From positions 620,001-684,000 of the forward strand of contig CP048715.1 of NCBI GenBank assembly GCA_022641835.1: DNA of 64,000 bases, read 5' to 3'. Positions 7,245-25,785 of this stretch are shown here, in pieces. The stretch comes from Petasospora fabianii. Its lineage: Eukaryota; Ascomycota; Saccharomycetes; Phaffomycetales; Wickerhamomycetaceae. Numbering within the stretch: the stretch's first letter is position 1; each line of letters begins with the position of its first letter. The notes beneath the pieces are model-generated. The model did no database searches. It saw only the letters and a program-made list of their open reading frames with translations, and was not told the origin of the DNA. The translations under genes and the position numbers were made by a program.

Positions 7245-8147
7245 TTACATCTCATCTTCATCTTCATCGTCATCCCTTTTTCTCTTGGTGCCCTTGGACT
7301 CATCCTCACTAAGATCTAGGGGCTCGCTCGCATCAGAGTCAACTTCCTCCTCGAGACCATCCCTCTGTGCCTCTGTGTAGTACTTCACAGCACTTGGGAA
7401 GAGATCATCTGCGAATAGTCGAGCGAGGTCATCACCGTTCGGGAATTCCTTGCCCGGCTTGCGTCCTGTCCACTTGAAGAAGCCAAAGAAACTCTTCATA
7501 CCGGCTCTGTAGTTCTTCTTCCCCTGAGGTGTCTTCTTCTCTGTGATCTTGGATGGATTGATAGAATCATAGGACTTTGGCCAGATAATATCAGCAGCGT
7601 CAGAAACGAGTCGCTCTGTGTCTTCACTGGTGTCATCTTCATCATCACTCAAGTTTGCACTCGACTTCTTCTTGCTTGCAGCGGCTGCGAGCTCTTCTGG
7701 GTCAATCTGCTCGATCCAAAATCTCTTCTTCACAATCTGTGCGGGGAAATCACCATCTTCAGTTCCCTTGAAGTCAAACGTTATGCTAAAGTTACCGGGA
7801 TCAACACCGTTATCAGTAGACTCTGCAGCATCCCAAGAGACATAAATATCTGAAATCGTCTCGATATACTTGAAATCCTGTGCCCTAATGTATTCCGCAA
7901 ATTCTGGATGTTGAGAAAGAACAATGTGCCAAAACTTATCAAGAACTTTGGTGTGATCGCTTCTTGTCTTGAAAATCTTAGAAACGGCCTTGAGACGGGA
8001 AATTTCTGCCGCACGTTCAGCTTGTTCCATCTGGTCTTCAGCGGAGGCTAGGCCAATCAGCGCATTCTCCACTTTTTTCCTGTGATTGTTAGTACTAATC
8101 ATGGGGCTAACCACAACACTGACTTACAAATCAGATGCATTTGCCAT
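7245..8147 (-). CDS. VPS75: NAP-family histone chaperone Vps75 (spliced, 284 aa)
   Basis: NAP/SET-family H3-H4 chaperone; in S. cerevisiae it partners with the acetyltransferase Rtt109. The protein has the long N-terminal dimerisation helix (after ALIGLASAEDQMEQAE). The earmuff domain contains FWHIVLSQHPEF, YIETISDIYVSW, ITFDFKG and FFGFFKWTG. A very acidic C-terminal tail ends in DDDEDEDEM and carries a basic KRKR patch. Exon 1 is only 20 nt (8147-8128, MANASD plus TT). The intron (8127-8080) has GTAAGT, TACTAAC and CAG. Splicing creates a TTG leucine codon and an ATG start that the downstream exon lacks. DIC1 lies 300 bp upstream on the same strand. Confidence 0.88.
8080..8127 (-). other. 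Spliceosomal intron of VPS75 (48 nt)
   Basis: GTAAGT donor, TACTAAC branch, CAG acceptor, interrupting a leucine codon (TT|G). The preceding coding exon is only 20 nt. Confidence 0.88.
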
Positions 8148-8448
8148 ATTGATGTCTCGATGGTGATAAGCAATTGACTGATGATGATATCTTGTTGATC
8201 ACCAAAAATCTTTGTTAAGTATTCAATGGGATGTCTGGGTTTTTTTGACAACTCCGCACTCACCGTTAACTTATCTTATAGATATTAGCAGATTCATGAT
8301 TTACTGATGACTACATCCGAAGTAATGCTTATTAGAACAATAAATTAAGCTCTCTGAATCAGAGAGAACAATGGATTAATTACAACGGGCTATTGAGGGG
8401 CCCACAATAAAAGTATTCAACACAGAGCATGCAACCCAGATAGTACTA

Positions 8449-9375
8449 TCACATACCAACACGCAAGTGCTTGAGCTGCTCAACAACCAAGAATGTGATG
8501 ATAGTATTTGGACCCAATCTAACGAAACTTGGAACCCAGCCTCTAAACATGAAAGAAGGGCCCTCGTTTTTGAAAGCGGTGCTCAAGATGTGAACGACGC
8601 TCTCACCTGTTCCAGAAGAGTTCATGATTCTGGTCTTGAGAACGTCCGCTGGGGAGCAAATGGTGGTAGCAACGAGACCTGAAAGAAGAGAAGCGGAGAA
8701 GAAAGTGGAAATAGAGTCCTTGTTCATACCGAAGGATATCAGCCAGTCCTTGGCAACATCATAGGTGACAACCTGTGACGAGGTCATGAGCACTCCTCTC
8801 ACCAAGTTAGTTCCGAGACCTCTGAACAGAGCAGAAGTTCCCTCTTCACGAGCCACTCTGATGACACCATCGATGGCATGCTTGTAGTTTCTTCTCTGAT
8901 CTGGGGCAAGACCTGTATCATTCTGCATTCTGATGTTAACGATATCAGCTGGGTTACCAACAACACCACCAATACCACCAGACAACATGGAAACAGGAAG
9001 GAGGTATGCCATAGATGACTGCTTATCAGCAGGAACAACATTCTCTTTCAAATACTCGTACACACCAAATCTTGTGAGGGAATAAGTAGCCTGACGAAGG
9101 AGACCTGCAGAGAGACCAGAGTAAACACCCAAGAGACCATCATGAACCAAGATAGACTTTGCCATCTGGAAAAGAGTTGGTTTTGGGATCGGAGCGGTTT
9201 GAAGACGAACTTTTGCCAGATCAAGTGGATGAGTAAAGAGACATGCAACACCACCACCGAATCCTCCATACCAGAAGGGCCACTTCTGGCGTGCTGTCAC
9301 GTCGACTTTGTGGGATGTGGTGGATGATGGAGAGGAGCTGAGGGTGCTCTCAGTCTTGGACGCTATGCTCGACAT
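8449..9375 (-). CDS. DIC1: Mitochondrial dicarboxylate carrier Dic1
   Basis: Inner-membrane carrier of the SLC25 family exchanging dicarboxylates (malate, succinate) for phosphate. The 308-residue protein has three carrier repeats with signatures PLDLAKVRLQ, PADIVNIRMQ and SPADVLKTRI, and glycine-rich segments such as YGGFGGGVACLF. Dic1 is the best call from the signature set (RMQND after the second repeat) and from context: in several yeasts DIC1 flanks the MAT locus, and here it lies immediately left of MATa2. The start ATG at 9375 is well placed, with a serine- and threonine-rich N-terminus. Confidence 0.88.
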   Translation of the reverse strand: MSSIASKTESTLSSSPSSTTSHKVDVTARQKWPFWYGGFGGGVACLFTHPLDLAKVRLQTAPIPKPTLFQMAKSILVHDGLLGVYSGLSAGLLRQATYSLTRFGVYEYLKENVVPADKQSSMAYLLPVSMLSGGIGGVVGNPADIVNIRMQNDTGLAPDQRRNYKHAIDGVIRVAREEGTSALFRGLGTNLVRGVLMTSSQVVTYDVAKDWLISFGMNKDSISTFFSASLLSGLVATTICSPADVLKTRIMNSSGTGESVVHILSTAFKNEGPSFMFRGWVPSFVRLGPNTIITFLVVEQLKHLRVGM

Positions 9376-9849
9376 TGCGTGAGGAGTAATGTGGTTTGGG
9401 TGATGAGGTGATGATAAGGCGCGTGCTCTTTATTGTGAGATATATCCACAAATTTCTCTTGTAGTGCTCGCCGCCAGTAGATGAGAAGTGGTGATGGAGT
9501 GTTGGTAAGCAACAGAGGAAGGATGGTCAACGAAGAAGCACGTAAATAATAGTAAAGGAAAACTGTCCGGCTTCTACTGCAGGCTTCGCTTATATTGCAA
9601 TTTTTTTGCATTAAATTTTATCATACGGCGCTCAACCTTACCCAATTCGGTCGCGGAGAAAGTCGGAACGTCTAAGAATCCCAAAAGCGAAGGTGGGCTC
9701 TAACTGACGTTCCTCTGGGAGATTATTATTTGGGATCTTCAATTACCAAAAGAGATCTTACGAGAATATGCTGAGGTGTATCATGTAGAACTCTGTATTG
9801 GTGTATTGATGTTGTACGTCTTCAACGACTAGCCGAGCTTGCAGGAAAC
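9376..9849. other. Intergenic: DIC1 promoter and MATa2 3' flank
   Basis: 474 bp between the DIC1 start and the MATa2 stop. A T-rich patch lies at about 9600-9620. No ORF of note, no second MAT gene fragment and no repeat shared with the right side of the MAT genes was seen. Confidence 0.5.
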
Positions 9850-10863
9850 TCACATAGGGGAACTGTTGATGCAAATATCCTCGGCTTCACCATACAAAGG
9901 GGACCTGAATTTACTGAATACAAGCTCCAAATGAGGCGGCGTCTTCTTCTTTTTTGTGGGCTTTGTTACCTTATATGTTGTCCTGGCGTTTGTACTAGCA
10001 GAGTCAACCGGAGCTTTCATATTAGGCTCGTTAAGCGTTAATACAAGCACATGGTCTTTGTAGTCATCTGAATCGTGGAGAGCATCGACCCCCCTCCGTT
10101 TGCAGTCGTCTTCCTCATAAACACTAGTGCAAAGCTTGACATAACTGCTCATATCTTTGATATCACTAGCTGAAGCTTTTTCGGTCTTTTGCTTACTCTG
10201 CTTGATTGAGTTTTCCGGATCGTTCAAAAAGATAACTGACATGTTCTGTTCTAACTCACTGTTCTTAGCACTAGCAGTACAAGCACTGGCTTTAGCAACT
10301 GTGCTTCGGGACCGCGGATTGTAATGATAGAGTGGATAGCGACATTCGTGTGACTCGTTTTCAAGAAAAGAGAGATAGTCAAAATAGCTCAAGAATAAGC
10401 GATTTCCTGAGCCCCAGATCTAGATATCATGTTAGTATTCGACCGTTGAGATGCTGTGCGTGTGACTGAAGTTCATAGAGAATGTACCTACTTTGGATAT
10501 GATTTTGGAGACATCGTTAGTCGACCAAGGGTGTCTGGTCTTGACAATCCGGCTCAGTATAGTCCTGGCAATGATGAACTTATTACGAGGACGTGCAACG
10601 TTGTTGTGTGGAGCGTAAACATAGATCGATTTTGTGCTGGTTCCGGAAGATAGATGGGCAAAAGTAATCTCTTTGGGACTGCGGGGAGCGTTTGCTCCAG
10701 CAGCTAGTCGGCTCGCCACTGGAAACTGCTTCTTTTCCCAAAAGACTTTAGTTGGTAGGTCTGTCTTGGTGAGGGTGAATGATATTTTCGAGAGGATGGG
10801 AAAGGTGCTTATCGACGGAGGTGCTTCTCCGTTTCTGCAGCACTGGGCGCCAATAGTAACCAT
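9850..10863 (-). CDS. MATa2: Mating-type protein MATa2, HMG-box transcription factor (spliced, 313 aa)
   Basis: HMG-domain regulator encoded by the a idiomorph; in yeasts that keep it, a2 activates a-specific genes. Exon 1 (10863-10492, 124 codons) carries the first half of the HMG box: ARPRNKFIIAR, then the S/TNDVSKIISK helix. Exon 2 (10419-9850) continues directly with IWGSGNRLFLSYFDYLSFL and ends the box with YPLYHYNPRSR. The box spans roughly residues 88-162. The intron (10491-10420) has GTAGGT, a perfect TACTAAC and TAG. Unspliced reading stops 19 codons into the intron, so the DNA-binding domain depends on splicing. The last 150 residues are basic and serine-rich with no domain I recognise. 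It is divergent from MATa1. Confidence 0.92.
10420..10491 (-). other. Spliceosomal intron splitting the MATa2 HMG box (72 nt)
   Basis: Donor GTAGGT, branch TACTAAC, acceptor CTAG. Phase 0, immediately before the conserved IW of the HMG box. Frame and domain continuity across the junction both support it. Confidence 0.92.
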
Positions 10864-11436
10864 CTTGAAGCTTGGATACGGATATTCCTCTCTATCTATG
10901 CTAAAATTCTAAATCAAGAGTGAAACTTTGTTAATGGGCCAGACGGTCTGCGGTCCATATGTAGTTTATAAGTCTTGCGAGATGAGGCGTGCATATGCTG
11001 CCTTTACCGATGTTTTGCAACACACATCTAACAAAGCACTTCATATCAGTTTTGCCCTCCAGAAGGCGCTTCATGAGAGTCCAAAAATCATAAGATGATC
11101 AGCAGAGAATTCGAGTTGAACATGTATAGTGCCAAGTTTAAGAAGTCGGGAAATATTTCAGTAGCGAAGTCTCAAATATGCGTTGACACTACCCCACACA
11201 GGCGAAAGAGCCGAGTCGCCTATTTTTCTTGCAGCCGGATTCGCGGCCGTACCTTCAATCCTGTCGCGGGCAACCACGATTACACTTAGGCAGAGCCCGT
11301 TACATATAAGATTGGGCCCCCTCTGATTGTTTCTCTGAGGCAAGGTCAATATTGACACAACAACAATCGGAGAACTCTTTTGAATCCCAAACGAACAAAA
11401 TAGGCTAGCCAATATTCGACTGAGAGATCCTGCAAA
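10864..11436. promoter_or_regulatory. Divergent MATa2/MATa1 promoter
   Basis: 573 bp between the two start codons, so both mating-type genes must be driven from it. Weak matches to the Ste12 pheromone-response element (TGAAACA) occur as TGAAACT at 10921-10927 and TGTTTCT at 11328-11334. No full a1/alpha2 operator (TGATGTA..ACATCA) was seen. Site assignments are inference. Confidence 0.6.
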
Positions 11437-12136
11437 ATGGCCACGAGGGATCAAATAGCGTATAAGGAGGCAAGCGAGAAGCTTGATGCCCTTATCGAGT
11501 TTTCATCTAACTTCTCGACTAACCCAACGAAACCGAGATATGACAAAATAATGCTGGAAGATCCGTTTGAGAAGGACAGTTTACTGAGCAAGGTTCCGGC
11601 CTATGCGAGAGCAGCATTGGAAACTCTGATCTCAAACTTCGAACTATCCCTCGGACGTGTTATGGTAGGACAATCTCTTTCCCATAAATCTAACCAATCG
11701 GTCATAAAAACTAACAAACCATTAGGACCACGACTCAGTACCAAGGGAAACCATCTTCAAGACTTATAAACGTATTCTGGAGAGAGAGGTTGATCGAGCA
11801 CTTGTTGATGGAATATTGAGCATTCCACCGAAAGAAGACCCCGAGGCGTACGGACACAGAATAGCATCGTACGAAGTCCAGTCTACCACTATCGAAGTAA
11901 CGGGATCGACTTCTAGCCCTGTCTTTCCAGGTGGAGGTCGCAAGCGAAATGCGCTTCCAGCAAAGAAGCGAACATCAATTACCCCTGAATCCAAGGAGTT
12001 TTTGGAGAGAGTGTTTAAGGCTAAGAGGACTCCAAACAGTACGGAGAGGAAAGTTATAGCAGAAAAGTGTGGACTCACGCCACTGCAGGTTAGGGTATGG
12101 TTCACAAACAAGAGAATGAGGAACAAGGAAGGCTGA
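11437..12136 (+). CDS. MATa1: Mating-type protein MATa1, homeodomain transcription factor (spliced, 212 aa)
   Basis: Homeodomain protein of the a idiomorph; with alpha2 it forms the diploid repressor. Exon 1 is 11437-11664 (76 codons) and exon 2 is 11726-12136. The homeodomain lies at about residues 150-210 and ends CGLTPLQVRVWFTNKRMR, nearly identical to the recognition helix of S. cerevisiae a1. W48, F49, N51 and R53 are all present, with Thr at position 50. No intron interrupts the homeodomain. The intron (11665-11725) has a GTAGGA donor, ACTAAC branch and TTAG acceptor; splicing keeps phase 0 and joins GRVM to DHDSV. Without splicing the frame ends before the homeodomain. The conserved leucine before QV is a CTG codon, supporting standard decoding. 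Confidence 0.94.
11665..11725 (+). other. Spliceosomal intron of MATa1 (61 nt)
   Basis: GTAGGA donor, ACTAAC at 11710-11715, acceptor TTAG at 11725; phase 0. The donor shares its GTAGG start with the MATa2 intron and differs from the three other well-supported introns in the window. Confidence 0.88.
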
Positions 12137-12240
12137 AAACCCATGTGGACCTGCCGGCTTCCTTACGTATTTACAATATGAATAAAATTGTTGTGTAATG
12201 GCGCATTTTGCTTTTTTTTTTTTGAAGATTATACGCCTCA

Positions 12241-13470
12241 CTAGTTTCTTCTACCACCTCTTGTCATCTGTGGCAACTTGAATGGCACCTTGAGAGAGGC
12301 AACCTTGTAAGTCGAAGCGAGATTCTTCTTAATACCGAACGCCTCAGCCTCAGCAACAGTTGCGCTCTTGACAATAGCACCAAGAGCCTTGAAAAGACCA
12401 ATAAGCCTTGTCGGTTTCAGAGAAAGTTCTTGGGCCAATGGGACAACTTCAACATGGAAGCCGGAGATGTGCATGATGGTGGCAAGAAGGAAACAGAGAA
12501 GCTTATCCTCGTGATGTGGATCAATCTTGAAGCCTCTGTCCTTGGAACGACCGAACTGGCCAGGTCTTTGAATAGCGAAGCGGTCAATAATACCATCGAT
12601 AAGAACCTCTGGTGGAGAGTTGAGCTGGGTTGTGAGTGCAAGCTTGTTTGAGATACGTCTGTTATGGTAGACACCCATGAGGAGAGAGGCATAGTAGATG
12701 AGCTGTAGTTTGGATGTCTGGGAGTCGTCGGTGATTCCTGTGAGCTGTTTCTTGATAAATTCTGATTCCTGGTATGGCATGTACTCCAATCTCTTTTCAA
12801 GGTCCTTCTCTTTGATGATTGGACCTGCGCGGATGAATTGTTGTTCCTTCTTTGGAATGATGTTATCGATAGGATAGATGTCTTCAACCGATGTAGCACT
12901 AACATCGGCAACGGGCGTTGGTCTGTCGTCGAGTACCGTCTTCTCGAGCTCTTGTCTCGTAGGAAGCGATGTTGTGTGTCCCTTGACTGTGTCAATGATG
13001 TCGGCCTCAGCACTCACGAGCTTCTCGGCATCAATTCTATTTCTCTCAAGATCTGTGATGGCCTTCTTGGCTTTCTTTGTACCAAAGGCCTCACCGAGAG
13101 CAGTTCTTTGAATGTTGGCACGGACGTTGTTCTGTTTGACCTTAGGTCCTCTAAGTCTTTTGTGGGCCTTAGATGTGACGTTTCCGAGAAGGACAGGAGC
13201 CTTGTAGAGCTCGACGGACTTGTTCACCGGATCGTAGAGGGCAATGGCGTAGTCGCTTGGGTCATCATTGTTTGTGATCGAATCATACTCGAGTCTATCA
13301 TTCTCTCCGTGGAATATCACTTCATCATTCTTATTTTTGTAAAGATCGAAGTGTGCATCCTCAGGAACTGAGAAACCCTTGAAGAAAGATGTGACAGCCA
13401 GCGTAGGATCGGTCGTGACGCTGGAAACACGAAGCTCAGGTTGCTCGTCTCTTGATCTCTTCTCTCCCAT
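12241..13470 (-). CDS. RPA49: RNA polymerase I subunit Rpa49
   Basis: TFIIF/TFIIE-like subunit of RNA polymerase I that aids initiation and elongation on rDNA, in the nucleolus. The 409-residue protein matches the S. cerevisiae family along its length. SFFKGFSVP and FDLYKNKN mark the N-terminal dimerisation domain, LGEAFGTKKAKKAI the linker, and YPIDNIIPKKEQQFIR, PGQFGRSKDRGF and KVPFKLPQMTR the C-terminal tandem winged helix. ATG at 13470 (MGEKRSRDE) is the start; frame extension beyond it has no ATG. It is convergent with MATa1 across about 100 bp holding a 13-T run, and divergent from DPH4. Confidence 0.95.
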   Translation of the reverse strand: MGEKRSRDEQPELRVSSVTTDPTLAVTSFFKGFSVPEDAHFDLYKNKNDEVIFHGENDRLEYDSITNNDDPSDYAIALYDPVNKSVELYKAPVLLGNVTSKAHKRLRGPKVKQNNVRANIQRTALGEAFGTKKAKKAITDLERNRIDAEKLVSAEADIIDTVKGHTTSLPTRQELEKTVLDDRPTPVADVSATSVEDIYPIDNIIPKKEQQFIRAGPIIKEKDLEKRLEYMPYQESEFIKKQLTGITDDSQTSKLQLIYYASLLMGVYHNRRISNKLALTTQLNSPPEVLIDGIIDRFAIQRPGQFGRSKDRGFKIDPHHEDKLLCFLLATIMHISGFHVEVVPLAQELSLKPTRLIGLFKALGAIVKSATVAEAEAFGIKKNLASTYKVASLKVPFKLPQMTRGGRRN

Positions 13471-13774
13471 GACGGCTCTCTGTAAGAATGAGGTAACAGG
13501 GGGTACGTTGGGTGTTCGAGGGCCAGAAGGTGTCACTCAGAGAGAGACCGCATCGCACCGCTAAAAAAAATTTGTGTCGCGAGAAGAGCTGGTGGTCGGA
13601 AATCATATACAAGCACGTGCCATACAGCTTTCTGTACTTGAAACTTGATTGATCCCCCGGAAATTATGACTGAGGATGGTCTGCACTACGCACCAAGATA
13701 ATGCTGGTGTCACCCTCTCATCTATCTCGAAGTGTTGCTAATCTCGAACCATTCACAAACCTAGAACATACTAC
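13471..13774. promoter_or_regulatory. Divergent RPA49/DPH4 promoter
   Basis: 304 bp separating the two start codons. An A8 tract lies near 13563. I see no other clear element. Confidence 0.45.
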
Positions 13775-14296
13775 ATGAACAGCATAACTCAAAAGTCGCA
13801 TTACGAGCTTCTCGGAGTGGAGCCAACAGCAAGCAGCTTGGAGATAAAGGCCGCATATAGAGAGAAACTATTATCAACTCACCCAGACAAAACGAAAGAG
13901 GTTGTGAGTACAGATATCATTAATCAGATCAAGCAAGCCTACATCACACTTTCGGACAGCAATCTGAGGTCTGAATATGATGCCGATTTACAAGAGTCAT
14001 TTAAGAAGAGTGGACTCATCAGCAGTGGTGATGGTCTTGACATATTCTCGCTAGATGACTTCAAGTGTGAGATGATTGGGATCGGTGAGGACGAGATGGC
14101 TGTGTTCAAAAAGGATTGTCCCAGATGCACAACTCAAGATGGGTTCGAGCTGAACGAAGCCGATTTGGAACAAAGTGGGACCCGAGATGGTGCTGGAGGC
14201 TACGAGATCATTGTTCAGTGTGCTGCCTGCAGTTTATGGCTCAAAGTCAAATACTACGACCTTGACGATGAAGACGACGACAAAGATGAGGAATGA
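13775..14296 (+). CDS. DPH4: Diphthamide biosynthesis J-protein Dph4 (Jjj3)
   Basis: J-domain protein that supplies electrons or iron to the Dph1-Dph2 enzyme in the first step of diphthamide formation on elongation factor 2. The 173-residue protein starts with a J domain (YELLGVEPTA, with HPD in LLSTHPDKTK). It ends with a CSL-type zinc-binding domain whose two cysteine pairs are seen in DCPRC and QCAACSLWLKV. An acidic tail of Asp and Glu closes the protein. J plus CSL in a protein this small is diagnostic of the Dph4 family. Confidence 0.9.
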   Translation: MNSITQKSHYELLGVEPTASSLEIKAAYREKLLSTHPDKTKEVVSTDIINQIKQAYITLSDSNLRSEYDADLQESFKKSGLISSGDGLDIFSLDDFKCEMIGIGEDEMAVFKKDCPRCTTQDGFELNEADLEQSGTRDGAGGYEIIVQCAACSLWLKVKYYDLDDEDDDKDEE

Positions 14297-14533
14297 GACG
14301 GTCCTTCGGCTGTCCGAAAGATCGTTTGGTTCTAGAGGTATCTGTCAATATGGCCTTGATCAGCATAAACCCGCCAAGTACTCAGCTAGTGTCTAACCAA
14401 ACCGAAGAGTTGAGATTGTATATCTTCAAGACTCTACAGGAAATAACAATAGGAGAGACTCCACGGCTACAAATGAGCTAAGTATCAAGAAGTGAATGAA
14501 TTGCTTTCAAACCAGCTATCCTAGCTAATCACC

Positions 14534-16324
14534 TTATCCATCTCTAGCAGATAGTCTTGCTTTCTCTTCCTGTAGCACTGCAAATAGAGCGTCACCCATA
14601 GTTTCAAGGTCAGTCATAAGTGAAATGTGGCCCTCACCACTTGAAAGTTTGGCCGCAACAGGGAATCCTCTTCTCTCTGGCATCAACCACTTATGATGCA
14701 CAACACCATCACCAGGACCATAGAAGAAGTCATCGTAGTTACCATTCTTGATATCAGCGACACCATCAACACGGGCACCTCTCACAGTTGGAACCTGATC
14801 ACCATAAACGATTGCAAGTGGCGGGTATTTCTTCTCTGGGTCGTACTTAAGGTCATCGAGGAACTTTTTGGTTCTTTTTAATGTGCGCGAGAGGTATGCG
14901 TATGATTCGTCAAATGAGACGTTAAATTCTTCTGCTGTCGACTTGTGAGAGGACCTCAAAGAGAGAGAACGTTTCATGTCAAAAGAGTCGATGCCTTTCA
15001 AAATTGGTGACTTGACAGGTTCCAATTTTGCAGCTTTGGCACTGGCTTTCTGGCGGCTCTTAGCCACTGCTGGTGACAAGTTATACTCCACCCAAGTCTG
15101 CGGATCAAAATAGTCAAGGTTGTACTGTTCATGGGTTTTCTTGTCGATGAAGCAGCGGCCATCCTCAGGTAGGAAGACAAAACTGGACCTCATAAAGAAG
15201 TTGATCTCAGGTGTTAGGATCTTGTTGTTGAAAAGCACAGTATCACCATAGCGGATTGGACCGAGCACGTTTGGACACATTGATGGAACACCCACGTAGA
15301 TCAAGCCACGGAACAGATCCGGTCTCTGCTGCATGGCATGGTGGGCAACCAAGCCCCCCATTGAGTGAGCGATGACAATAGCACCTTTAGGATTCGATCC
15401 TTGGTTGCATTTTAACTTGGCCAAGAATTCGATCACCTTCTGTGAACTTATATCGCAGGACAGTCTCCAGTCATATCCAAAAGTATGCACATTGGTCTTA
15501 CCATTTGTCAGCTTCGCCCTCAGTTTCCTTGTGATATCAACTGGTCCAACATGATTTAGTGTCTTTGGAGAATATATGTGCTTCTGGACTTCGATTTCGT
15601 CCTCATCATTTGGGCCTATCAGCAATGTCTTCTTGTTCAAATTGAGCCCTGTCTTGAAAGAGGGAATCCAGAGACGGTTGTTGGTCTCCGTCTCCTTGAG
15701 GACACTCCCTCTGTAGCCTCCCAGAATTACCACCTCACCTTCAATCTGGTCCCACACTGATTCCTTCTTCCTCTTTTCGTCGATAAGTGAAGGGATGCTA
15801 ATGGCAGGCGTGAATGCTTTCTTCACTGCTCTGAACCTACCGTTGTCAACACCCTTGAGGTCCTTGAAAAGAAAACTTTCTTCGATCGTGCTTACCGACT
15901 GCTGCCTCTTGAGTTTCTGTTTGATCTCATGCCTTGAAAGAGTAGGGTCATACCCTCGATCATCTGTATCGTTGCTGCCAATGATAGGAAGATTCTGTCT
16001 AATCTGCTTTATTGATGGGAAGTGTATCGCATTTCCACCAAATGGAAGACTGAATGTGAAAATCTTGTGCTCGTTCTTGTAATGACTACTCTCAAGGTCA
16101 TCAGTGGTAACCTGGTTGTTTTCCAGCTGCTCGTCCTTGGATGAAGTCTCCTGGTGGTGATGTTCAGGATGTGCCGAAACGACACTTGAGCCACCGATGA
16201 AGGACTGCGCAGCATCCGAGCTGACGTCCGAGCCATCAGCGTGCTGTCCCGGGAAGTACTCGGTGTCTTCAGTGGCCTCTGAAGATTGGAGATTGTCTGA
16301 CATGGTGGATCTTGCCTTCTTCAT
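14534..16324 (-). CDS. LCAT-like alpha/beta-hydrolase (YJR098C type)
   Basis: Putative lipase or acyltransferase of the lecithin:cholesterol acyltransferase-like superfamily; I believe it corresponds to the uncharacterised yeast YJR098C. The N-terminal 180 residues are polar and low-complexity. The hydrolase core begins near EGEVVILGGYRGS. The nucleophile elbow AHSMGG puts the catalytic Ser at residue 321. A late DGVVHH segment and GEGHISLM could supply the Asp and His of the triad. A disordered insert rich in K and S sits near residues 430-480. No signal peptide or membrane span is obvious. It is divergent from MRPL17 over about 440 bp. Confidence 0.75.
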   Translation of the reverse strand: MKKARSTMSDNLQSSEATEDTEYFPGQHADGSDVSSDAAQSFIGGSSVVSAHPEHHHQETSSKDEQLENNQVTTDDLESSHYKNEHKIFTFSLPFGGNAIHFPSIKQIRQNLPIIGSNDTDDRGYDPTLSRHEIKQKLKRQQSVSTIEESFLFKDLKGVDNGRFRAVKKAFTPAISIPSLIDEKRKKESVWDQIEGEVVILGGYRGSVLKETETNNRLWIPSFKTGLNLNKKTLLIGPNDEDEIEVQKHIYSPKTLNHVGPVDITRKLRAKLTNGKTNVHTFGYDWRLSCDISSQKVIEFLAKLKCNQGSNPKGAIVIAHSMGGLVAHHAMQQRPDLFRGLIYVGVPSMCPNVLGPIRYGDTVLFNNKILTPEINFFMRSSFVFLPEDGRCFIDKKTHEQYNLDYFDPQTWVEYNLSPAVAKSRQKASAKAAKLEPVKSPILKGIDSFDMKRSLSLRSSHKSTAEEFNVSFDESYAYLSRTLKRTKKFLDDLKYDPEKKYPPLAIVYGDQVPTVRGARVDGVADIKNGNYDDFFYGPGDGVVHHKWLMPERRGFPVAAKLSSGEGHISLMTDLETMGDALFAVLQEEKARLSARDG

Positions 16325-16762: not shown

Positions 16763-17674
16763 ATGATGCAGAATGGTCTTCAGCGTAAGTTATAATGTCT
16801 TTCCCTTTTCCTTGTTGGCGGGAGCCTTTAACTAACAAGAAATGCAGCCATCAGAAGATGTTTAGCGACAGCGGCATCATCATCACCAGCTTCAGTGTCA
16901 CTTGAGAGCATCAAGGCCGGTCTTCTGCTCGCTCGTAACCCAATCGTCACCCCAGATCTCACACCTCTCGAAAATGCATACTTCAACTACCAGGAGGAAC
17001 TTGAACGCAGACTGATGTGGACATTCCCACACTACTACTACTTCAAGAAGGGTTCCCTCGCCGAACGTCGTTTCTTCAAGGCACAGCGTGGACCTGTATC
17101 TAAGCAGCCAGGTGTCTTCTACTCGAAAGGTGTGCCTGATATCGTGCACAACCGTGAACGTCGCTCGAAGCAGGAGGTTGTGATTCCAAAGGATGAATAC
17201 GAAGAATCCGCAATGTCGGACATTTCGAGACCAGTTTTACCAAACTCTCGTGTTACAAAAGCAGACGAACAGGGTGATTTGACAAGTTTGGAAAGACAGC
17301 TACCGAGAACACTTTATCTTCTTGTAAAGGATGGAAAGCTTGGCTGGAAGCTGCCAAGTTTCGACGTTACAGAGGGTACACCATTGCACAGAGTCGCCGA
17401 GGACGGTTTAAGACAACTTGGTGGTGACCAGATTAACACATGGACTGTCGCTCGTTCTCCAACGGCAGTCTTAAAGTTTGATGGCTGCTCTTTGGCTCCA
17501 GTGGATGCTCAGAAGAAGGGTCTCTCCAGAGAATTCATCATTAAGTCCAATATCCTCTCAGGTGCATTCAAGCCACAGAAGGTTGAGTATGCTTGGTTGA
17601 CTCGTGAGGAGATTGAAGAGAAGGTGAGTGGGGAATACTTCCAGGCAACTGAGTTTTTGTTCTCTCGTGTCTGA
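16763..17674 (+). CDS. MRPL17: Mitochondrial large ribosomal subunit protein mL46 (spliced, 282 aa)
   Basis: mL46 (yeast Mrpl17) is a Nudix-fold protein of the mitochondrial large ribosomal subunit. Exon 1 is 22 nt (16763-16784) and encodes MMQNGLQ. The intron (16785-16847) has GTAAGT, an AACTAAC branch and TGCAG. Exon 2 continues PIRRCLATAASSSP, giving a basic, serine- and alanine-rich mitochondrial presequence. Family landmarks follow: NAYFNYQEELERRLMWTFPH, then KLGWKLPSF and the VAEDGL Nudix-like helix. The mature part alone lacks an ATG start, so the spliced model is needed. Length matches the 281 residues in S. cerevisiae. Confidence 0.9.
16785..16847 (+). other. Spliceosomal intron of MRPL17 (63 nt)
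   Basis: GTAAGT donor, AACTAAC branch, TGCAG acceptor. It follows a 22-nt coding exon and completes a proline codon (C|CC). Confidence 0.88.
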
Positions 17675-17817: not shown

Positions 17818-19215
17818 TCAATTGGTACGTTCAACACCAGTGAAAACAGACCCATCACCATTTGTGTAAAGATATGAGATTGCCACTGGGCTGAATCTGA
17901 ACTTTCCATCGAGATTAGTTCCAGAATTACATCCTGGGAGCGACACGACCTCTTTACCGGTCTCTATGTTGAAGATCTTCGCAGAGTCTGCCTCTTGATA
18001 AGTCACACCAAGATGGACGCCATCAGCAAAGAGATCCATTCTATGAATTGACTGATCAACAGTTCCAATGGTTCGGGCCAATGATAGGTCTGTGGTGGAC
18101 CAGAGTGAGATGATGCCCTCGTGAGAACCAGCAGCGATGTAGCGACCCCGTGGGTCCATACACAGGGAATTGATCCTAGAACGGTGACCCTCAAGTATGC
18201 AAGCATTGGCAAAGGCACCATCACCGCCCTTGATAACAACAGAGATCTTACCGGTCACAAGACCGACAAAAATGGCCACGGAGTTGTTGCTCCAACAAAG
18301 CGACGATACGCCATCCTTTCCATACTCTAAGGTCTGCAACTGTTCGTATGTGTTAGCATTATAGATCACAAGTGTGTGTGCTTGTGTGATGACAGCCAAG
18401 TATTCTGCATTCGGAGAGTATGCAATATCAACTGGTGTTGTCTCTGCGGTCTCAATCTCATGCATTAGCTTACCAGTCACAATGTTCCAAATATGAATGC
18501 TCTTGTCCTTTCCAATTGTGGCTAAAATCTCATCGCTTTCTGGTCTCCATGCAATTCGTGTTACCATACATTCATGTAATTTCTTCATAACGGTTGGCTG
18601 TCTTGGTGTTGGATCACCATTGTTCTTGTTCACGTTCCATATAACGAGTATACCATCTGTACGTGACACAGCAATACGTGCACCGTTGTAACTCCATTCA
18701 GCAGCAGTTATTTCGAAGCCACGGTGAGTTTCACGATTTGGTTTGACAAGCTCTATATGATTCATCTTTTCCAACGGCTGTTGGCTTGGTCCCGATGGAA
18801 GCACCGTCTTCGATTTCTTGCTAGTAGAGGGCCTTGATTGGCGTGTAGTTGGGGCTGTATCTCGAGGCAGGTCATCTCTTCTCGAAGTGTGACGAGTAGC
18901 ATCAGCACGATCACTCACACGGTTACGGTCCGAAGCTTTATCTCCTCCGCGGATTGCTCCACGGTCATTCGGTCTACCAGTGTCTCTCGTGCCATGGCCG
19001 TCTCTATCACGATCATCCCTTGAGGGTCTGTCTCTGTCTCTTTCTCTTTCCCGGTCCCGGAGATCCCTGCCTCTGTCACCTCTATCACCTCTGTTACCTC
19101 TTCCTTCTCCTCTACCACTTCCTCGAGCGTCACCTCTTTCATGACCTCGATCACCACGAACACCTCGGCCAAGTCTGTCATCAGCACCCCTATCAGATCT
19201 TCTTAGAGTGGACAT
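17818..19215 (-). CDS. TEX1: WD40 THO-complex protein, Tex1/THOC3-like
   Basis: Probable Tex1, the WD40 subunit of the THO/TREX complex that couples transcription to mRNA export. Residues 150-460 form WD repeats: HRGFEITAAEWSYNGARIAV, DKSIHIWNIVTGKLM, HRSRINSLCMDPRGRYIAAG and EGIISLWSTTDLSLARTIG. The layout resembles THOC3, including a short terminal repeat. The first 150 residues are an unusual disordered arginine tail made of RGD/RDR and RGxRGxRG units, which S. cerevisiae Tex1 lacks as far as I recall. Such tails commonly bind RNA. It is convergent with MRPL17 and divergent from RTC4 by 204 bp. Confidence 0.72.
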   Translation of the reverse strand: MSTLRRSDRGADDRLGRGVRGDRGHERGDARGSGRGEGRGNRGDRGDRGRDLRDRERERDRDRPSRDDRDRDGHGTRDTGRPNDRGAIRGGDKASDRNRVSDRADATRHTSRRDDLPRDTAPTTRQSRPSTSKKSKTVLPSGPSQQPLEKMNHIELVKPNRETHRGFEITAAEWSYNGARIAVSRTDGILVIWNVNKNNGDPTPRQPTVMKKLHECMVTRIAWRPESDEILATIGKDKSIHIWNIVTGKLMHEIETAETTPVDIAYSPNAEYLAVITQAHTLVIYNANTYEQLQTLEYGKDGVSSLCWSNNSVAIFVGLVTGKISVVIKGGDGAFANACILEGHRSRINSLCMDPRGRYIAAGSHEGIISLWSTTDLSLARTIGTVDQSIHRMDLFADGVHLGVTYQEADSAKIFNIETGKEVVSLPGCNSGTNLDGKFRFSPVAISYLYTNGDGSVFTGVERTN

Positions 19216-19419
19216 TGTCTCAACACTCTCTGCTCCTCTTCTGCTTAACTATCCAGGAACTGATGTTGTACAATTCTGAGTTCCCAGTGTTTCGAGGTAG
19301 TGAATGTTATCGGAAAAATACAGAAGGCGCGCATCAAGAAGTCAGCTGCGGGTTACTAAATCGCATCACTACCAAGAGAAGATCACCTTCTAACAGATCC
19401 TTCTTTGACCCTTCCAACA

Positions 19420-21288
19420 ATGAATTCCCAACGGCATACACCCTATATTCGAGCTGACTCCTCCAGTGTGCTACCGAGGACGCTGGGCCGTCGACCGCCC
19501 GGCCCTGTCATCCCGAACCTGGGAGCTAAGCACCATCACAGCTCTCTTAACAAACCCCCTCGATCATCTCGACAGCATGATGAACGAGAGTCTTCATCAC
19601 CTCCCAGACCACACAGCTCCTTTGCCCCACCTATCAACTCCAATTCCTCAACCACGTCCGCCTCTAGTCCCAAAAAAAACGTTACCGATGGGCGGGACCC
19701 TGCCAACTTGATCTCCACAACGTACGCCTACTGCGGCAACAGGAAACGACTGCAGAATCCAAGGGATGTCGAAAATAAAAAGAGACTAAGAGAGATGGAA
19801 GCAAAAAATGCTCCTGGGGAACCGCCGGTGGCTCTACAGTCTAAAAGGTTTCAACAGGAAGCGTCAGTTGTCAAGGCGAATGATGGGGACACCTTTGAGC
19901 CTCTAACGTCTTCGTCTGGTGTGCTATCACAAGAGACAAACAACCGAAAAAGAAACATACTTTCTTCTTTGGAGAAACGTGCCCCAATAATGTCTCCAGG
20001 TGAAGAGGAACAAGAAGGTTCAAGGCATAGAATTCCTTCAATTCGATCAGACGCTGACTTCATGAACTCCATTCGTGCTCCAAGGATCCCCAGTCGAGCT
20101 GCTCAAGCTGACTACGAGAAGCACACTGCTAGCGCTCGTCTACAACATAAACGTGAGGATACAGAGGTCAAGGGAATGGATCAACAATTGCATGATGACA
20201 CGAATTCAGGGAAAAGGGAAACTAAAAAAGGGGAAGATGTCGCTCCAATACCAAGGAAGAGGGCGCTGATTAAAGGTGTGAAATCTTCTGCTAAGAAAAG
20301 CACAGGATCGACGAGTGAACCATTGGGTGATATTAGGGGCATGCTGTCTGGAAAGAAAAAGTCAGGGAGTAAGTCACCTCACCGCCGTGGCACCGAAGAC
20401 TTGGGTATTGAAGATCCAGGTGGTGAGACACACAAGCACCGGGGCCGTCATGAAGGTTCAGTGGGGGACGCTCTAGGCTCGGATGAAGAGTTGTTCAACT
20501 TCGACTCGCCTGGGCCATCCTCGCAGGAATTGCGTTCCGCCAAAGAGCTTCTCAAGGATGATGAAAGTCATAAAGCTATGAAGTCTGCAATTGACAGTCT
20601 CTCAATAAAAAGCGGCATATTGAACAAACGATTCAAACCCGATGGTGATGACTATCTTGAGATGATGAAGCGCAGGTCTGTCTTTGACCCAAAGCAGTCT
20701 CGAAACATTGAGTACGCTGACTTGAATCAGGATATCAGTGTTGGTCTACAAAATGAGTTTGAAGAGGTTGACGAGCAGGCAAACGAGGTCAAACAGCAAG
20801 CTATTGTGAAAAGGAAGTATGGAAATGAGGAGTTTCCGGGAACATTAACCCTCGGTGAGATTGAGCAAAAGGTCAACCAGCACATGGACTGCATTCCAAA
20901 AATTCTCAACGGTCGTCTTGACTCCACTTACCTGCAAAAAGCGAAAGTATTCATGCACGACTCTGGAGCAACAATCTTGTCCAATGCAGATCTCCAAAGA
21001 CCTAGTTTCAAGCAGTTCTTTAGTGGATTTTATGGTTTGAAAAGACAAGGGGCTATTGCTAATCTAATCAGAAGAAAGTACCATAAACTTATCAAGGAGA
21101 AGGCCGAGCACAACAGGGTTATCCAATTTTGGTCCATCGATACATTCACATTACACATTCTCGCTCCAGAGGTTGCTGCAAGAATGGCCGCCGAGGATAT
21201 GAGTATCAGCATCGATGAGGCTATCAGAGTGTTGGATAGAACAGTTGATTATGGTCAATACATCGCTGATTTGGTCCCTTGTGAATGA
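19420..21288 (+). CDS. RTC4: Rtc4 family protein (restriction of telomere capping)
   Basis: The 622-residue protein ends in an RTC4 domain, seen in FPGTLTLGEIEQKVNQHMDC, FKQFFSGFYGLKRQG and the final DLVPCE. In S. cerevisiae RTC4 is linked genetically to telomere capping; no molecular activity is established. The N-terminal 450 residues are disordered, with many basic and serine-proline sites and a PRKRALIKG basic patch. ATG at 19420 is the first in frame. It is tandem with SLA2. Confidence 0.85.
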   Translation: MNSQRHTPYIRADSSSVLPRTLGRRPPGPVIPNLGAKHHHSSLNKPPRSSRQHDERESSSPPRPHSSFAPPINSNSSTTSASSPKKNVTDGRDPANLISTTYAYCGNRKRLQNPRDVENKKRLREMEAKNAPGEPPVALQSKRFQQEASVVKANDGDTFEPLTSSSGVLSQETNNRKRNILSSLEKRAPIMSPGEEEQEGSRHRIPSIRSDADFMNSIRAPRIPSRAAQADYEKHTASARLQHKREDTEVKGMDQQLHDDTNSGKRETKKGEDVAPIPRKRALIKGVKSSAKKSTGSTSEPLGDIRGMLSGKKKSGSKSPHRRGTEDLGIEDPGGETHKHRGRHEGSVGDALGSDEELFNFDSPGPSSQELRSAKELLKDDESHKAMKSAIDSLSIKSGILNKRFKPDGDDYLEMMKRRSVFDPKQSRNIEYADLNQDISVGLQNEFEEVDEQANEVKQQAIVKRKYGNEEFPGTLTLGEIEQKVNQHMDCIPKILNGRLDSTYLQKAKVFMHDSGATILSNADLQRPSFKQFFSGFYGLKRQGAIANLIRRKYHKLIKEKAEHNRVIQFWSIDTFTLHILAPEVAARMAAEDMSISIDEAIRVLDRTVDYGQYIADLVPCE

Positions 21289-21745
21289 AATGACAGCCTG
21301 CACTTTCAAATGTGCATTTATATAGAAATTTTCTCAACAAAGGAAGGATCCATTCTTAAAACCAAAACGATAACGTTACTAGACATATTTGGGCCAAAAT
21401 CAGACACCTTCCTCTTTGGGAAGTTTCCCCGTCACGATTTCGCGAACAGCGCGGCGCGGGCGCAGTCTGCCGCGATCGGATTGGTTATGGAATTGACAAC
21501 AGGATACCAAGCATAGGCTGTCACCACCAATATCAGTACAGAAGGTCACCCATCGTTGATCAATCGTGAGTTCCCTTCACACTCTTTCTGAGCTGGGCAT
21601 GCTGCTATTGGCCCTGTCTCTTTTCCGGAAGTTACAGCCGGAATTGACTGAAGGTTCAGACAGCCGCCGGCCGATAACAACGACACCTTACTCAATGCAT
21701 ACCCGATCTTATCTATACTTCAGATGACTAACAATACTTGAAAAG
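21289..21745. promoter_or_regulatory. RTC4-SLA2 intergenic region (SLA2 promoter)
   Basis: 457 bp. A GC-rich stretch (about 21430-21485) contains GCGCGGCGCGGGC. A GACTAAC sits just before the SLA2 ATG; it resembles a branch site, but no upstream coding exon is needed for SLA2. Confidence 0.45.
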
Positions 21746-24700
21746 ATGTCGAAGACAATCTCCGACTCCGACCTTATTTCATCGTTGAAGAAGGCTACTT
21801 CTCTCGACGAAACTGCTCCAAAGAGAAAACACGTCAGAGCATGTATTGTCTACACCTGGGACCACAAGTCCTCCAGACAGTTCTTCAACCAGCTGAAACT
21901 GCTCCCTGTTCAGGGTGATGAAGTTCAACTCTTTAAGACACTGATCACCATTCACAAGGTTCTCCAGGAGGGTCATGGCTCTGCTTTGAAGGAGGCCATG
22001 CGTAATGCTGATTGGATCGAGGGCCTAGGAAGATCAGTCCATGGTGATGGATTCAAGGGCTATGGAAGACTCATCAAGGAATACGTGGTCTATTTGTTAA
22101 GAAAGCTCAACTTTCATAAGAACCACCGTGGATTCAATGGTACATTCGAGTATGAAGAGTATGTCTCCCTTGTTACCGTGCAAAACCCTGACGAAGGTTA
22201 CGAGGCCATTCTCGATCTCATGACTTTGCAAGATGCTCTGGACGATCTTCAAAGACTGATCTTTGCTAGTATCTCCCATGACAGAAAGTCTGAGTGTAAG
22301 ATCTCTGCTCTTGTGCCATTGGTTGCCGAGTCATACGGTATCTACAAGTTCATTACGTCTATGCTCAGGGCTATTCACCGCTCCACGGGATCTGATGAGG
22401 CATTGGAACCTTTAAGAGAACGCTATGAGTCTCAACATGCCAGACTCTACGAGTTCTATGCTGACTGCTCCTCAATCCGCTACTTGACTTCCTTGATTAC
22501 AATCCCAAGACTTCCAGAAACAGCACCAAACCTCATCTCTAAAGATGAGAGTGACGTGGAAAGTGAAAGACCGGCCTCAAGACAAACTTCGGTCGCTACA
22601 CCAGTTCCAGAACCAATCTCGGAACAGCCAACTATGGGTAACTTCCAACAGCCAATTGCATCTCAGCCAACTGGTGTTGATTTCTGGAACACCCAACAAA
22701 ACGTGTTTGAAGCCGAACAGCAGAGACTTGCAAGAGAAGCCCAAGAAAACATGCTTCAACAGCAGCAACAGGCTGAGCAACAGCGTATTTGGTTTGAACA
22801 GCAACAGGCTGCTCAGGCTGAACAGCAGAGGCTAGCCCAGGAACAGCTTTTGCGCGATCAGTTGCAGAACCAGGCAGAGGGAAGAGTCGCAGAGTTAGAA
22901 CGTGATTTGCTCGCAATGAGGCAACAGTACGAGAACGATCAGTTGTTATTACAGCAGTACGATCAAAGAGTCAAAACCCTGGAGCAGGAAATTGCCACCA
23001 CAACACAGACTGCTACTCAGCAACTTGGTTCTAAGGATGAGCTTTTGAACAGTTTGCAGGAACAGTTGACTTTATGGAAAAATAAGTACGATTCTTTGGC
23101 TAAGCTGTACTCACAGTTGAGACAGGAGCATTTGAACCTGTTGAACAAGTTTAAAAAGTTACAGCAAAAGGCTGCCTCGGCCCAGGAAGCCATCGAGCGT
23201 CGTGAGAAGCTTGAGAAGGACTTGAAGTCTAAGAACGTTGAGCTGGCAGGTCTGATCAGAGAACGTGACAGAGCTAGATTGGACTTAGAGAAAATTAAGG
23301 GTGGTAAAGACAGCGAGATTGATAAGTTGGAGCTCCAGATCAGGGACCTGACATTGAAGCTTGATGACTCTGAGAGAAGCCAGTCCTCGAACTTATCGTC
23401 GGTGTTTGCTTCTCACAAGAGAGAGATGGAAGACTTGAAGGCAAAACTTGAGACACAGTCTCGTGCTCTGAACCCAGACCTTGAACAGAAGCTCAAAGAG
23501 AAGGAAGAGGAGCTTGAGATTGTGCAGCAAACCATGGATGATGCCCTTCAGGAGCTTGCCAGAGTCCAGGGAGAGAACGATGAGGCTATTAACGAACAAC
23601 TTGATGCAGTCCTGATTGATCACCTCACTAAGCTCACATCATTGGTTGATGCCATCTTGGCTTCCGGTATCAAAAGGATTCAGGACTCCTTGTACGAGCT
23701 GGACTCTCCAATGCAGGCTGGTAATCAAAACTCATCACCGGAGTACTTGCTTTCCATCATCGAGAAGGCCCAATCGTCCGCTACCGACTTTGCCAACTCT
23801 TTCAATGACTTCATTGCCGATGGTCCAAATGGTGATCACTCTGAGATCATCAGATCCATTAACGAATTCACATCTTCTATCGCCGATGTTCTGCTCAATG
23901 CCAAGGGTATTGTGAGACTTGTGAAGACTGATAGTGAATCTAATCAGCTCATTGCCGCCTCCAGATCTACCGCTCAGGAATCTGAGGACTTCCTTATGTC
24001 TCTCCTCTCCGATATCCTTGAAGGAACTGAGGAAGAGAAAACCGAAGTTGTTATTTCCGGTAACTTGAACGTCCAAGAGAAGCTTCAAGAACTCATTGTT
24101 ATTGCTGAGAACCTTGCACCAAGATCTGTTCTCAAGAACATCAATGGTGATCTTGGTGATGCAGTTGATAACGAATTGAACTCTGCCGCTTCTGCTATCA
24201 CATCTGCTGCTGCTCATCTCAAGGATCTGCTTAACTCCTCTTTCGATTCATCCATCGACGGTGATATCAACAAGGCCATCTTATCTGCTGCTATTGCCGT
24301 TACCAACTCAATCGCTCTTTTGATTCAGGCCGCCATTGAGACACAGAATGAGATTGTGACCAAAAATCAGGGAAGTGGTACCCGTGCCCAGTTCTACAAG
24401 AAACACAATAGATGGACTGAGGGTCTCATTTCAGCTGCTAAGGCTGTTGCTGCTTCCACCAAGATCTTGATTGGTACTGCGGATGGTGTGTTGAGTTCTA
24501 AGAACACCCATGAAGAATTGATTGTGGCTTCCAATGAAGTGGCTGCTTCCACTGCCCAACTTGTTGCTGCCTCAAGAGTGAAGGCTACATTCATGTCCAA
24601 GACGCAGGATACGTTGGAGAATGCTTCCAAGACTGTTACGTCTGCCTGCAGATCTTTGGTCAACCAAGTTCAGGATATTTTGAACCAGAGAACGAATGGT

Positions 24701-24871
24701 GGTGATCAGGATATTGACTTCTCGAAGTTGACGAACCATGAGAACAAGACTATGGAGATGGAGCAGCAAGTGGAGATTTTGAAGTTGGAGAATGCCTTGG
24801 CTTCCGCTAGAAAGAGATTGGGTGAGATCAGAAAGTATGGATACAGAGATGGTGACAGTGATGAAGAGTAA
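21746..24871 (+). CDS. SLA2: Actin-binding endocytic adaptor Sla2 (End4, HIP1R family)
   Basis: Sla2 links clathrin-coated pits and PI(4,5)P2 membranes to actin during endocytosis. The 1041-residue protein has an N-terminal ANTH domain (to about residue 270; KRKHVRACIVYTWDH, FEYEEYVSL). A glutamine-rich coiled coil follows at about 325-620 (LAKLYSQLRQEHLNLL). A C-terminal talin-like I/LWEQ actin-binding module follows (RWTEGLISAAKAVAASTKIL, VAASTAQLVAASRVK, LENALASARKRLGEIRK). This matches the S. cerevisiae protein domain for domain. The CTG in HLNLL sits at a conserved leucine. SLA2 borders MAT in many yeasts; here it lies 9.6 kb right of MATa1. Confidence 0.97.
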   Translation: MSKTISDSDLISSLKKATSLDETAPKRKHVRACIVYTWDHKSSRQFFNQLKLLPVQGDEVQLFKTLITIHKVLQEGHGSALKEAMRNADWIEGLGRSVHGDGFKGYGRLIKEYVVYLLRKLNFHKNHRGFNGTFEYEEYVSLVTVQNPDEGYEAILDLMTLQDALDDLQRLIFASISHDRKSECKISALVPLVAESYGIYKFITSMLRAIHRSTGSDEALEPLRERYESQHARLYEFYADCSSIRYLTSLITIPRLPETAPNLISKDESDVESERPASRQTSVATPVPEPISEQPTMGNFQQPIASQPTGVDFWNTQQNVFEAEQQRLAREAQENMLQQQQQAEQQRIWFEQQQAAQAEQQRLAQEQLLRDQLQNQAEGRVAELERDLLAMRQQYENDQLLLQQYDQRVKTLEQEIATTTQTATQQLGSKDELLNSLQEQLTLWKNKYDSLAKLYSQLRQEHLNLLNKFKKLQQKAASAQEAIERREKLEKDLKSKNVELAGLIRERDRARLDLEKIKGGKDSEIDKLELQIRDLTLKLDDSERSQSSNLSSVFASHKREMEDLKAKLETQSRALNPDLEQKLKEKEEELEIVQQTMDDALQELARVQGENDEAINEQLDAVLIDHLTKLTSLVDAILASGIKRIQDSLYELDSPMQAGNQNSSPEYLLSIIEKAQSSATDFANSFNDFIADGPNGDHSEIIRSINEFTSSIADVLLNAKGIVRLVKTDSESNQLIAASRSTAQESEDFLMSLLSDILEGTEEEKTEVVISGNLNVQEKLQELIVIAENLAPRSVLKNINGDLGDAVDNELNSAASAITSAAAHLKDLLNSSFDSSIDGDINKAILSAAIAVTNSIALLIQAAIETQNEIVTKNQGSGTRAQFYKKHNRWTEGLISAAKAVAASTKILIGTADGVLSSKNTHEELIVASNEVAASTAQLVAASRVKATFMSKTQDTLENASKTVTSACRSLVNQVQDILNQRTNGGDQDIDFSKLTNHENKTMEMEQQVEILKLENALASARKRLGEIRKYGYRDGDSDEE

Positions 24872-25785
24872 GCTTGAGTCTGATATTTCACGAAAGCTCA
24901 TGTATGTACATTGGAATGAAAGACTAGCATAACACCTTTTTTAGTCTTTAGCGGCTGATGCTTTGCCACTCTGGTAACCATCAATGTCTATAAAACCGGT
25001 TGAGTGGCGCTGAGGGGGGGGGGGCCACGGCCATAAACGGCCGCGTATAATGGGTGCCCTATCGATCATCACTAGGCGCGTTGTGTCTATGTTCATTGCT
25101 TCTATGCTGGTTTACACACGTCATTTTGCAAGCTAAAGTGTCTTTAATAACATCAACACTAGAAATATAATTGATTTTGGATGATTAAACTCTTAGAGAA
25201 AAATAATTTTCTCGTGGCAGATAAAGGTTTTCCGAAAAAATATAGGTGACCCCTTGTGAAATGAAGCAGTAAAACTTCTCTTTAACTTTATCAAAGACTT
25301 TTTTAAATCAAAAAAATTCAAAAAATTGTCCTCAAAAGAAAGAAGTGAGAGACTTTGAAGTATTCAGGAAGAAAAAATTAGTTACTGAGATTTAGGTACA
25401 AATTGTGGTGCCAGTGAACGACTTTTATTCGAAGGATGCGAGATAAAGTGTTGGCCAGCGTAACCAAGCGCTAGCACGACATGTATGACAACTCGATCAT
25501 GAGCTACAATGTTGCTGTAGTATGATTATTCGGTACAGCTGGTCCTTCCATTAGTCTTACGCAGGATGTGATCGATCTATAAATAATAGAATGGTGTTTT
25601 TACTCAAATATATAAGCGAAAACGGCACTGGATGTTAAATAACAGATCAAGGAAAGCAGATCATAATAATCATAATAACGTAGAGACCAATAGTGTACAA
25701 GCCAGGGAGACTGGCCGACAGATACGGCAATAAATAACTGAATGGACACTTGATCGAGAGAATGTTCCATTTGATAGCGAACAAC
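24872..25785. other. SLA2-regulator intergenic region with G11 run and AT-rich segment
   Basis: 914 bp between convergent genes. It holds an 11-12-G run at about 25013-25024 and an AT-rich, A-tract-filled stretch (about 25130-25420). No ORF of note. Confidence 0.6.

Follow-up and report, generated by a model that had tools for sequence, protein, structure and literature searches.

The MATa locus

The mating-type (MAT) locus described here lies in a 64,000-nt stretch of the Petasospora fabianii genome (the window, C1:620001-684000, 46% G+C, to which all plain coordinates refer) within an assembly of 12.34 Mb in 16 contigs. Between DIC1 and RPA49 are found MATa1 and MATa2, a divergent pair of genes with one intron each. 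The gene models bear out the original prediction that both genes are complete, divergent and spliced, both introns being of the yeast type, and are as follows.

9850..10419, minus strand: MATa2 exon 2, with the second half of the HMG box, the C-terminal tail and the stop (reading frame, splice sites, weak HMG box)
10420..10491, minus strand: MATa2 intron of 72 bp, splitting the HMG box (GTAGGT...ACTAAC...TAG)
10492..10863, minus strand: MATa2 exon 1, ATG at 10863 (reading frame)
10864..11436, no strand: divergent a2-a1 promoter region of 573 bp, CATTGT being absent from both strands
11437..11664, plus strand: MATa1 exon 1 (splice-site model)
11665..11725, plus strand: MATa1 intron of 61 bp (GTAGGA...ACTAAC...TAG, with ACTAAC as the branch site)
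11726..12138, plus strand: MATa1 exon 2, with the homeodomain and the stop (Pfam homeodomain E 1.4e-17; S. cerevisiae MATa1, 1f43, E 4.7e-17)

Splicing of MATa1 yields a product of 212 aa, the GTAGGA...TAG pair having been picked among six possible pairs that keep the homeodomain in frame. Its best PDB matches are to MATa1 of S. cerevisiae itself, and the first other protein follows at E 3.9e-10, about seven orders behind. The homeodomain gene that characterises the MATa idiomorph of Saccharomycotina is present.

Recognition of MATa2, with a spliced product of 313 aa, is less direct. A PDB search (E up to 1) gives five sequences, the top four of them HMG-box proteins, and SOX-5 comes first at E 0.019 with a match across the whole box. 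By several measures the box is weak: the Pfam family PF00505 is reached at E 0.068 and 14 bits, short of its 25.4-bit cut-off, and a model built from five HMG boxes of the same genome scores the protein at 5.0 bits, where the best of 1000 shuffles scores 4.2. With no strong sequence match to call on, its putative identity rests mainly on position, divergent orientation and intron, all of which fit the a2 gene of a MATa idiomorph, and on the weakly recognised box.

Overall this is an intact and real MATa locus of an otherwise ordinary yeast type, and the authenticity originally proposed for it is upheld by the intact a1/a2 pair, the homology of a1 and the ancestral DIC1/SLA2 context. The interval first given for the idiomorph, 9376..13470, does contain MATa; as a whole span it does not hold, since it takes in the whole RPA49 gene. 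No more than 9376-12240 is specific to MAT, and to place the true edges of that part a MATalpha allele is needed for comparison.

Copy number and the search for alpha genes

In a genome-wide DNA search the MAT stretch (8300-14500) and the SLA2 stretch (20700-26200) each occur once in the assembly, the sensitivity of that search to repeats as short as 0.2 kb not being established, and neither stretch has a blastn match in 213 kb of other DNA from the same genome. Inverted repeats within 1-34000 (seed 12, length at least 25) come to two chance-like pairs, of 34 nt at 71% and 25 nt at 80%.

A homeodomain search of the genome (E up to 10) finds five places, namely MATa1, a PHO2-like, a YOX1-like and a CUP9-like gene, the last of the TALE class, and one further TALE gene. 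The three likenesses were named by eye, and the CUP9-like gene alone was compared with solved alpha2. None of the five places was judged alpha2-like, in a search that reported matches as weak as E 0.013. The CUP9-like gene (L005, on C3) was rejected as alpha2 because the best of its 24 PDB hits are TGIF homeodomains, with alpha2 at 2.4e-06, and because its neighbours look, by eye, CBC2-like and PPZ/PPQ1-like, the synteny of S. cerevisiae CUP9. No alpha gene was seen by eye in the open frames around it, and the other TALE gene (L006) was likewise rejected by eye.

For alpha1, a genome search with the MATalpha_HMGbox family (PF04769), at E up to 10, was without a candidate, and the genome likewise has no match to S. 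cerevisiae alpha1, both searches having been run without a positive control. A tblastn with the same alpha1 against contig ends returned a single weak match (L036, 20% over 69 aa, E 0.16), which was taken as chance. The note had found no alpha gene or second copy in the window; across the assembly, the homeodomain, PF04769, alpha1 and DNA searches likewise found no alpha gene and no second copy of the MAT and SLA2 stretches. Both pheromone receptor genes, STE2 (E 2.9e-79) and STE3 (E 6.9e-84), are present and free of internal stops.

Mating system

In the scheme of Krassowski et al. (2019, PMC6692504), a genome of the HET class carries genes of a single type, MATa or MATalpha. Only MATa genes were found in this assembly, with the alpha1 search lacking a positive control and with no telomere array at any of the 18 contig ends, out of 32, that were looked at. 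A second MAT set with inverted repeats near MAT, which marks the flip/flop classes FF1 and FF2, is not seen in the stretches searched, nor are silent a and alpha cassettes with flanking repeats, as in the three-locus class (3LOC). The a and alpha genes at non-allelic sites that mark the primary homothallic classes (PHC and PHN) were not found either, with the same reservation on alpha1.

This is very probably the one active MATa locus of a budding yeast that is heterothallic or, at the least, does not switch. Heterothallism is preferred to switching by inversion because the genome check proposed at the outset found no alpha gene, and no further copy of either the MAT or the SLA2 stretch. Weighing against this are the uncontrolled alpha1 searches, the fact that a single genome cannot prove heterothallism, and the state of the contig ends: no telomere-like array is present in the terminal 2 kb of any of the 18 ends, and because of this subtelomeric loci, a MATalpha copy for instance, may be missing from the assembly. 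Those ends leave room for a secondary homothallic system, flip/flop or with a silent cassette, whose silent MATalpha sits in an unassembled subtelomere. Such an arrangement has been proposed for Wickerhamomyces canadensis, where MATa lies between full SLA2 and DIC1 and MATalpha is on a 7-kb, probably subtelomeric contig (PMC6692504). The W. canadensis system, however, carries SLA2 and DIC1 end repeats, whereas here both stretches are single-copy and the inverted repeats are limited to the two short pairs; a hidden cassette of this kind is judged unlikely.

It is also conceivable, at a decidedly low probability, that a primary homothallic yeast has both MATa and MATalpha genes here and that divergence or introns have hidden the alpha genes from the searches. 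An HMG family search that missed this genome's own a2 lends this some colour, as do the uncontrolled alpha1 searches and the weak L036 match, but the homeodomain search, for all its reach to E 0.013, gave nothing judged alpha2-like, and the frames around the CUP9-like gene are equally without an alpha gene to the eye. Lastly the strain might no longer be sexual, its MATa genes persisting unused as a relic. Sequence leaves some room for such a state, yet the frames of a1, a2, STE2 and STE3 are all open and the STE2 promoter still has its operator-like sites, and a relic seems very improbable indeed. Read as a single MATa locus, the region gives the map of mating systems in budding yeasts a clean MATa case.

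Candidate a2-Mcm1 operators

CATTGT is the a2 motif. The 1,080 bp upstream of STE2 contain it twice, and each copy has CCCAATNNGG after it, across a spacer of 5 bp in one case and 6 bp in the other. A looser pattern, CATTGTN{4,7}CCNAATNNGG, was framed on these two STE2 sites and then sought genome-wide; a sharper form of the motif is CATTGTYTCKTCCCAATNNGGAA. The candidate sites are these.

L021 (C2:1360500-1364500), STE2 at 2320: two a2-Mcm1-like operators, CATTGT-N5/6-CCCAATNNGG, 308 and 189 bp before the STE2 ATG
C1, near STE3, minus strand: operator site 180 bp before a small-protein gene (L030:8363-7884; two exons, 141 aa, two hydrophobic stretches)
C3, opposite orientation: operator site 106-126 bp upstream of an RCE1-like CAAX protease gene (L031:8014-8949; Pfam E 6.3e-12)
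C13: operator site before EXO5, a match to the looser pattern

The looser pattern has five exact matches in the genome, against two for a reversed control and one in 12 Mb for a simulation on window composition; it has none in the window and none at the STE3 locus (L024). The spacer NTCNT is common to the 5-bp STE2 site, the small-membrane-protein site and the RCE1 site, and is absent from the EXO5 site. A scan of the window and selected loci for exact a1-alpha2 operator words found none and was too narrow to weigh.

In the ancestral circuit a2 and Mcm1 activate a-specific genes (Tuch et al. 2008, PMC2253631), and the arrangement here suggests an ancestral-type activation of STE2 and perhaps other targets by a2: there is an a2 gene, and CATTGT stands beside an Mcm1-like site upstream of STE2. 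The likeness stops at sequence, and the sections used here of the two relevant papers (PMC2253631, PMC5720833) do not name RCE1 as a-specific. Against activation of this type it must be set that two of the five matches defined the pattern, five against two being a small excess, and that the EXO5 match, with no mating link, is probably chance. In Ogataea polymorpha, moreover, the expression of STE2 and STE3 is reported to be independent of cell type (PMC5720833), and because of this ancestral-type control is not to be assumed here. The same account lists BAR1, AXL1, ASG7, RAM1, RAM2 and STE6 among O. polymorpha a-specific genes, and since a-factor maturation genes are in that set, RCE1 would fit as a-specific.

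ASG7 was considered as a name for the small gene near STE3 and rejected on sequence, as S. cerevisiae ASG7 falls within the range of its 1000 shuffles and Pfam gives a bacterial family alone (E 0.2); the likeness to ASG7 is one of architecture and operator. What is new here, plausibly, is the a2-Mcm1-like operator upstream of STE2 and a short list of candidate targets, a modest addition. The list can be tested, and may help to place the point at which a-specific genes passed from activation by a2 to repression by alpha2.

The roles of a2 as an activator and of a1-alpha2 as a repressor are known from other yeasts. By analogy, in the haploid, a2 would bind through its HMG box together with Mcm1 at CATTGT-N5/6-CCCAATNNGG and so turn on a-specific genes such as STE2; a1 alone would be inactive and, after mating, would pair with the alpha2 of the partner for the repression of haploid functions.

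Neighbouring genes and gene order

VPS75 and DIC1 lie to the left of MAT, and seven genes from RPA49 to SLA2 to its right.

7245..8102, minus strand: VPS75, NAP-family histone chaperone (Pfam NAP 2.3e-09; VPS75 3c9b E 4e-60)
8449..9375, minus strand: DIC1, mitochondrial dicarboxylate carrier, left MAT neighbour (Pfam Mito_carr E 1.1e-58)
12241..13470, minus strand: RPA49, right MAT neighbour (Pfam 5.6e-115; RPA49 4c2m E 1.3e-151)
13775..14296, plus strand: DPH4/JJJ3 (DnaJ 4.4e-17; CSL zinc finger 5.4e-14)
14534..16324, minus strand: LCAT/lipase-like alpha/beta hydrolase (Hydrolase_4 5.1e-05; LCAT 7.3e-05)
17015..17674, plus strand: MRPL17 (mL46), the frame being open from 16895 with GTG (mL46 8ux4 6.1e-58, 3j6b 8.4e-58)
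17818..19215, minus strand: TEX1/THOC3-like WD40 protein (best Pfam family THOC3 3.4e-44, 151 bits against a cut-off of 305; PDB search not decisive)
19405..21288, plus strand: RTC4 (Pfam RTC4 7e-28)
21746..24871, plus strand: SLA2 (ANTH 1.4e-74; I/LWEQ 6e-60; single copy)

DIC1 is 59% identical to S. cerevisiae DIC1 over 292 aligned positions. As first described, DIC1 adjoins MAT on the left and SLA2 stands beyond six genes on the right, with 9.6 kb from the MATa1 stop to the SLA2 start, and the Pfam and PDB matches agree with the identities given. Left of DIC1 come VPS75, VPS10 and an FGGY kinase (MPA43), and, further out, the Cys-tRNA synthetase, GIS2 (the family match being to a CCHC zinc-knuckle protein), FOL1, NRD1, SUI1, CWC25 and RAD50; SIP3 (a BAR/PH/VASt protein) is left of RAD50 with four other genes between.

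The S. cerevisiae run YNL243W-YNL257C presumably consists of SLA2, SUI1, CWC25, VPS75, YNL247W (Cys-tRNA synthetase), RPA49, MPA43, RAD50, NRD1, MRPL17, TEX1, RTC4, GIS2, FOL1 and SIP3. Within C1:595294-644871 (49.6 kb, being 1-24871 of the window and its left flank) family matches are found for all 15 of these genes in a shuffled order, the assignments being by family, with several possibly to paralogues and TEX1 below the THOC3 cut-off. The neighbourhood is better read as conserved in content and shuffled in order, with nothing foreign inserted and with the SLA2-side block now enclosing MAT and DIC1. Shuffling is favoured over insertion because RPA49, MRPL17, TEX1 and RTC4, as well as the left-side genes, share one S. 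cerevisiae run with SLA2. Of the earlier view the rearranged neighbourhood therefore stands and the insertion of six genes does not: genes apparently inserted beside MAT can be old neighbours reordered. Small rearrangements of an old SLA2-side gene block would have left MAT inside the block and adjoining DIC1. Of the literature searches for RPA49 or the names of the YNL run together with MAT or its neighbouring genes, most gave no paper, and none of the papers listed by the remaining one contains RPA49.

Comparison with known MAT arrangements

Krassowski et al. (2019, PMC6692504) give SLA2-MATa1-MATa2-DIC1 as the ancestral MAT context, found in Ambrosiozyma, with SLA2-MAT-DIC1 in Candida arabinofermentans. 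The original prediction had staked itself on some relative sharing the DIC1-MAT arrangement; the arrangement is described as ancestral, and the refutation fails. The relative order here is the same (DIC1, a2, a1, then SLA2 on the a1 side); unlike the ancestral context, RPA49, DPH4, the LCAT-like gene, MRPL17, the TEX1-like gene and RTC4 come between a1 and SLA2. By the same account MAT lies between SLA2 and YJR098C in Saccharomycopsis and between SLA2 and VPS75 in Cyberlindnera saturnus/jadinii, C. jadinii counting as a heterothallic species with one MAT locus (PMC6692504). The Cyberlindnera layout is matched here in that MAT has VPS75 to its left and SLA2 to its right; it differs in that here DIC1 intervenes between VPS75 and MAT, six genes stand before SLA2, and an inverted repeat and an alpha set were not found in the stretches and assembly searched.

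A joint reading, doubtful as it stands, may be put forward: RCE1, with its role in a-factor maturation, would have been drawn into the a2-Mcm1 regulon, making a-factor processing cell-type-specific, and a MAT locus inside the SLA2-side block would be a possible precursor of the Cyberlindnera flip/flop loci.

Other features of the genome

The C/D-box snoRNAs snR41 and snR51 are adjacent in the window, at 46386-46485 and 46975-47068, and a coding tandem repeat of 69 bp in 2.6 copies lies at 58482-58657, which we take to resemble PIR cell-wall protein repeats. Elsewhere, L043 (C12:1-2000) has at 1159-1441 a coding tandem repeat of 135 bp in 2.1 copies with a WGQCGG...C...C unit, which presumably resembles a fungal cellulose-binding module and would be out of the ordinary in a budding yeast. 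The core of RPB1 aligns at 2631 bits to 1i3q and at 2574 bits to 5x4z, structures which we take to be from S. cerevisiae and Komagataella respectively, and all eight CTG codons of RPB1 fall at leucine positions of S. cerevisiae RPB1 (alignment, counted by hand). Taken with VPS75 next to the locus, RPB1 points towards Phaffomycetales and perhaps towards Cyberlindnera. Contig C16 (L047; 51.6 kb), which opens with 2 kb of 16% G+C, is probably mitochondrial DNA.

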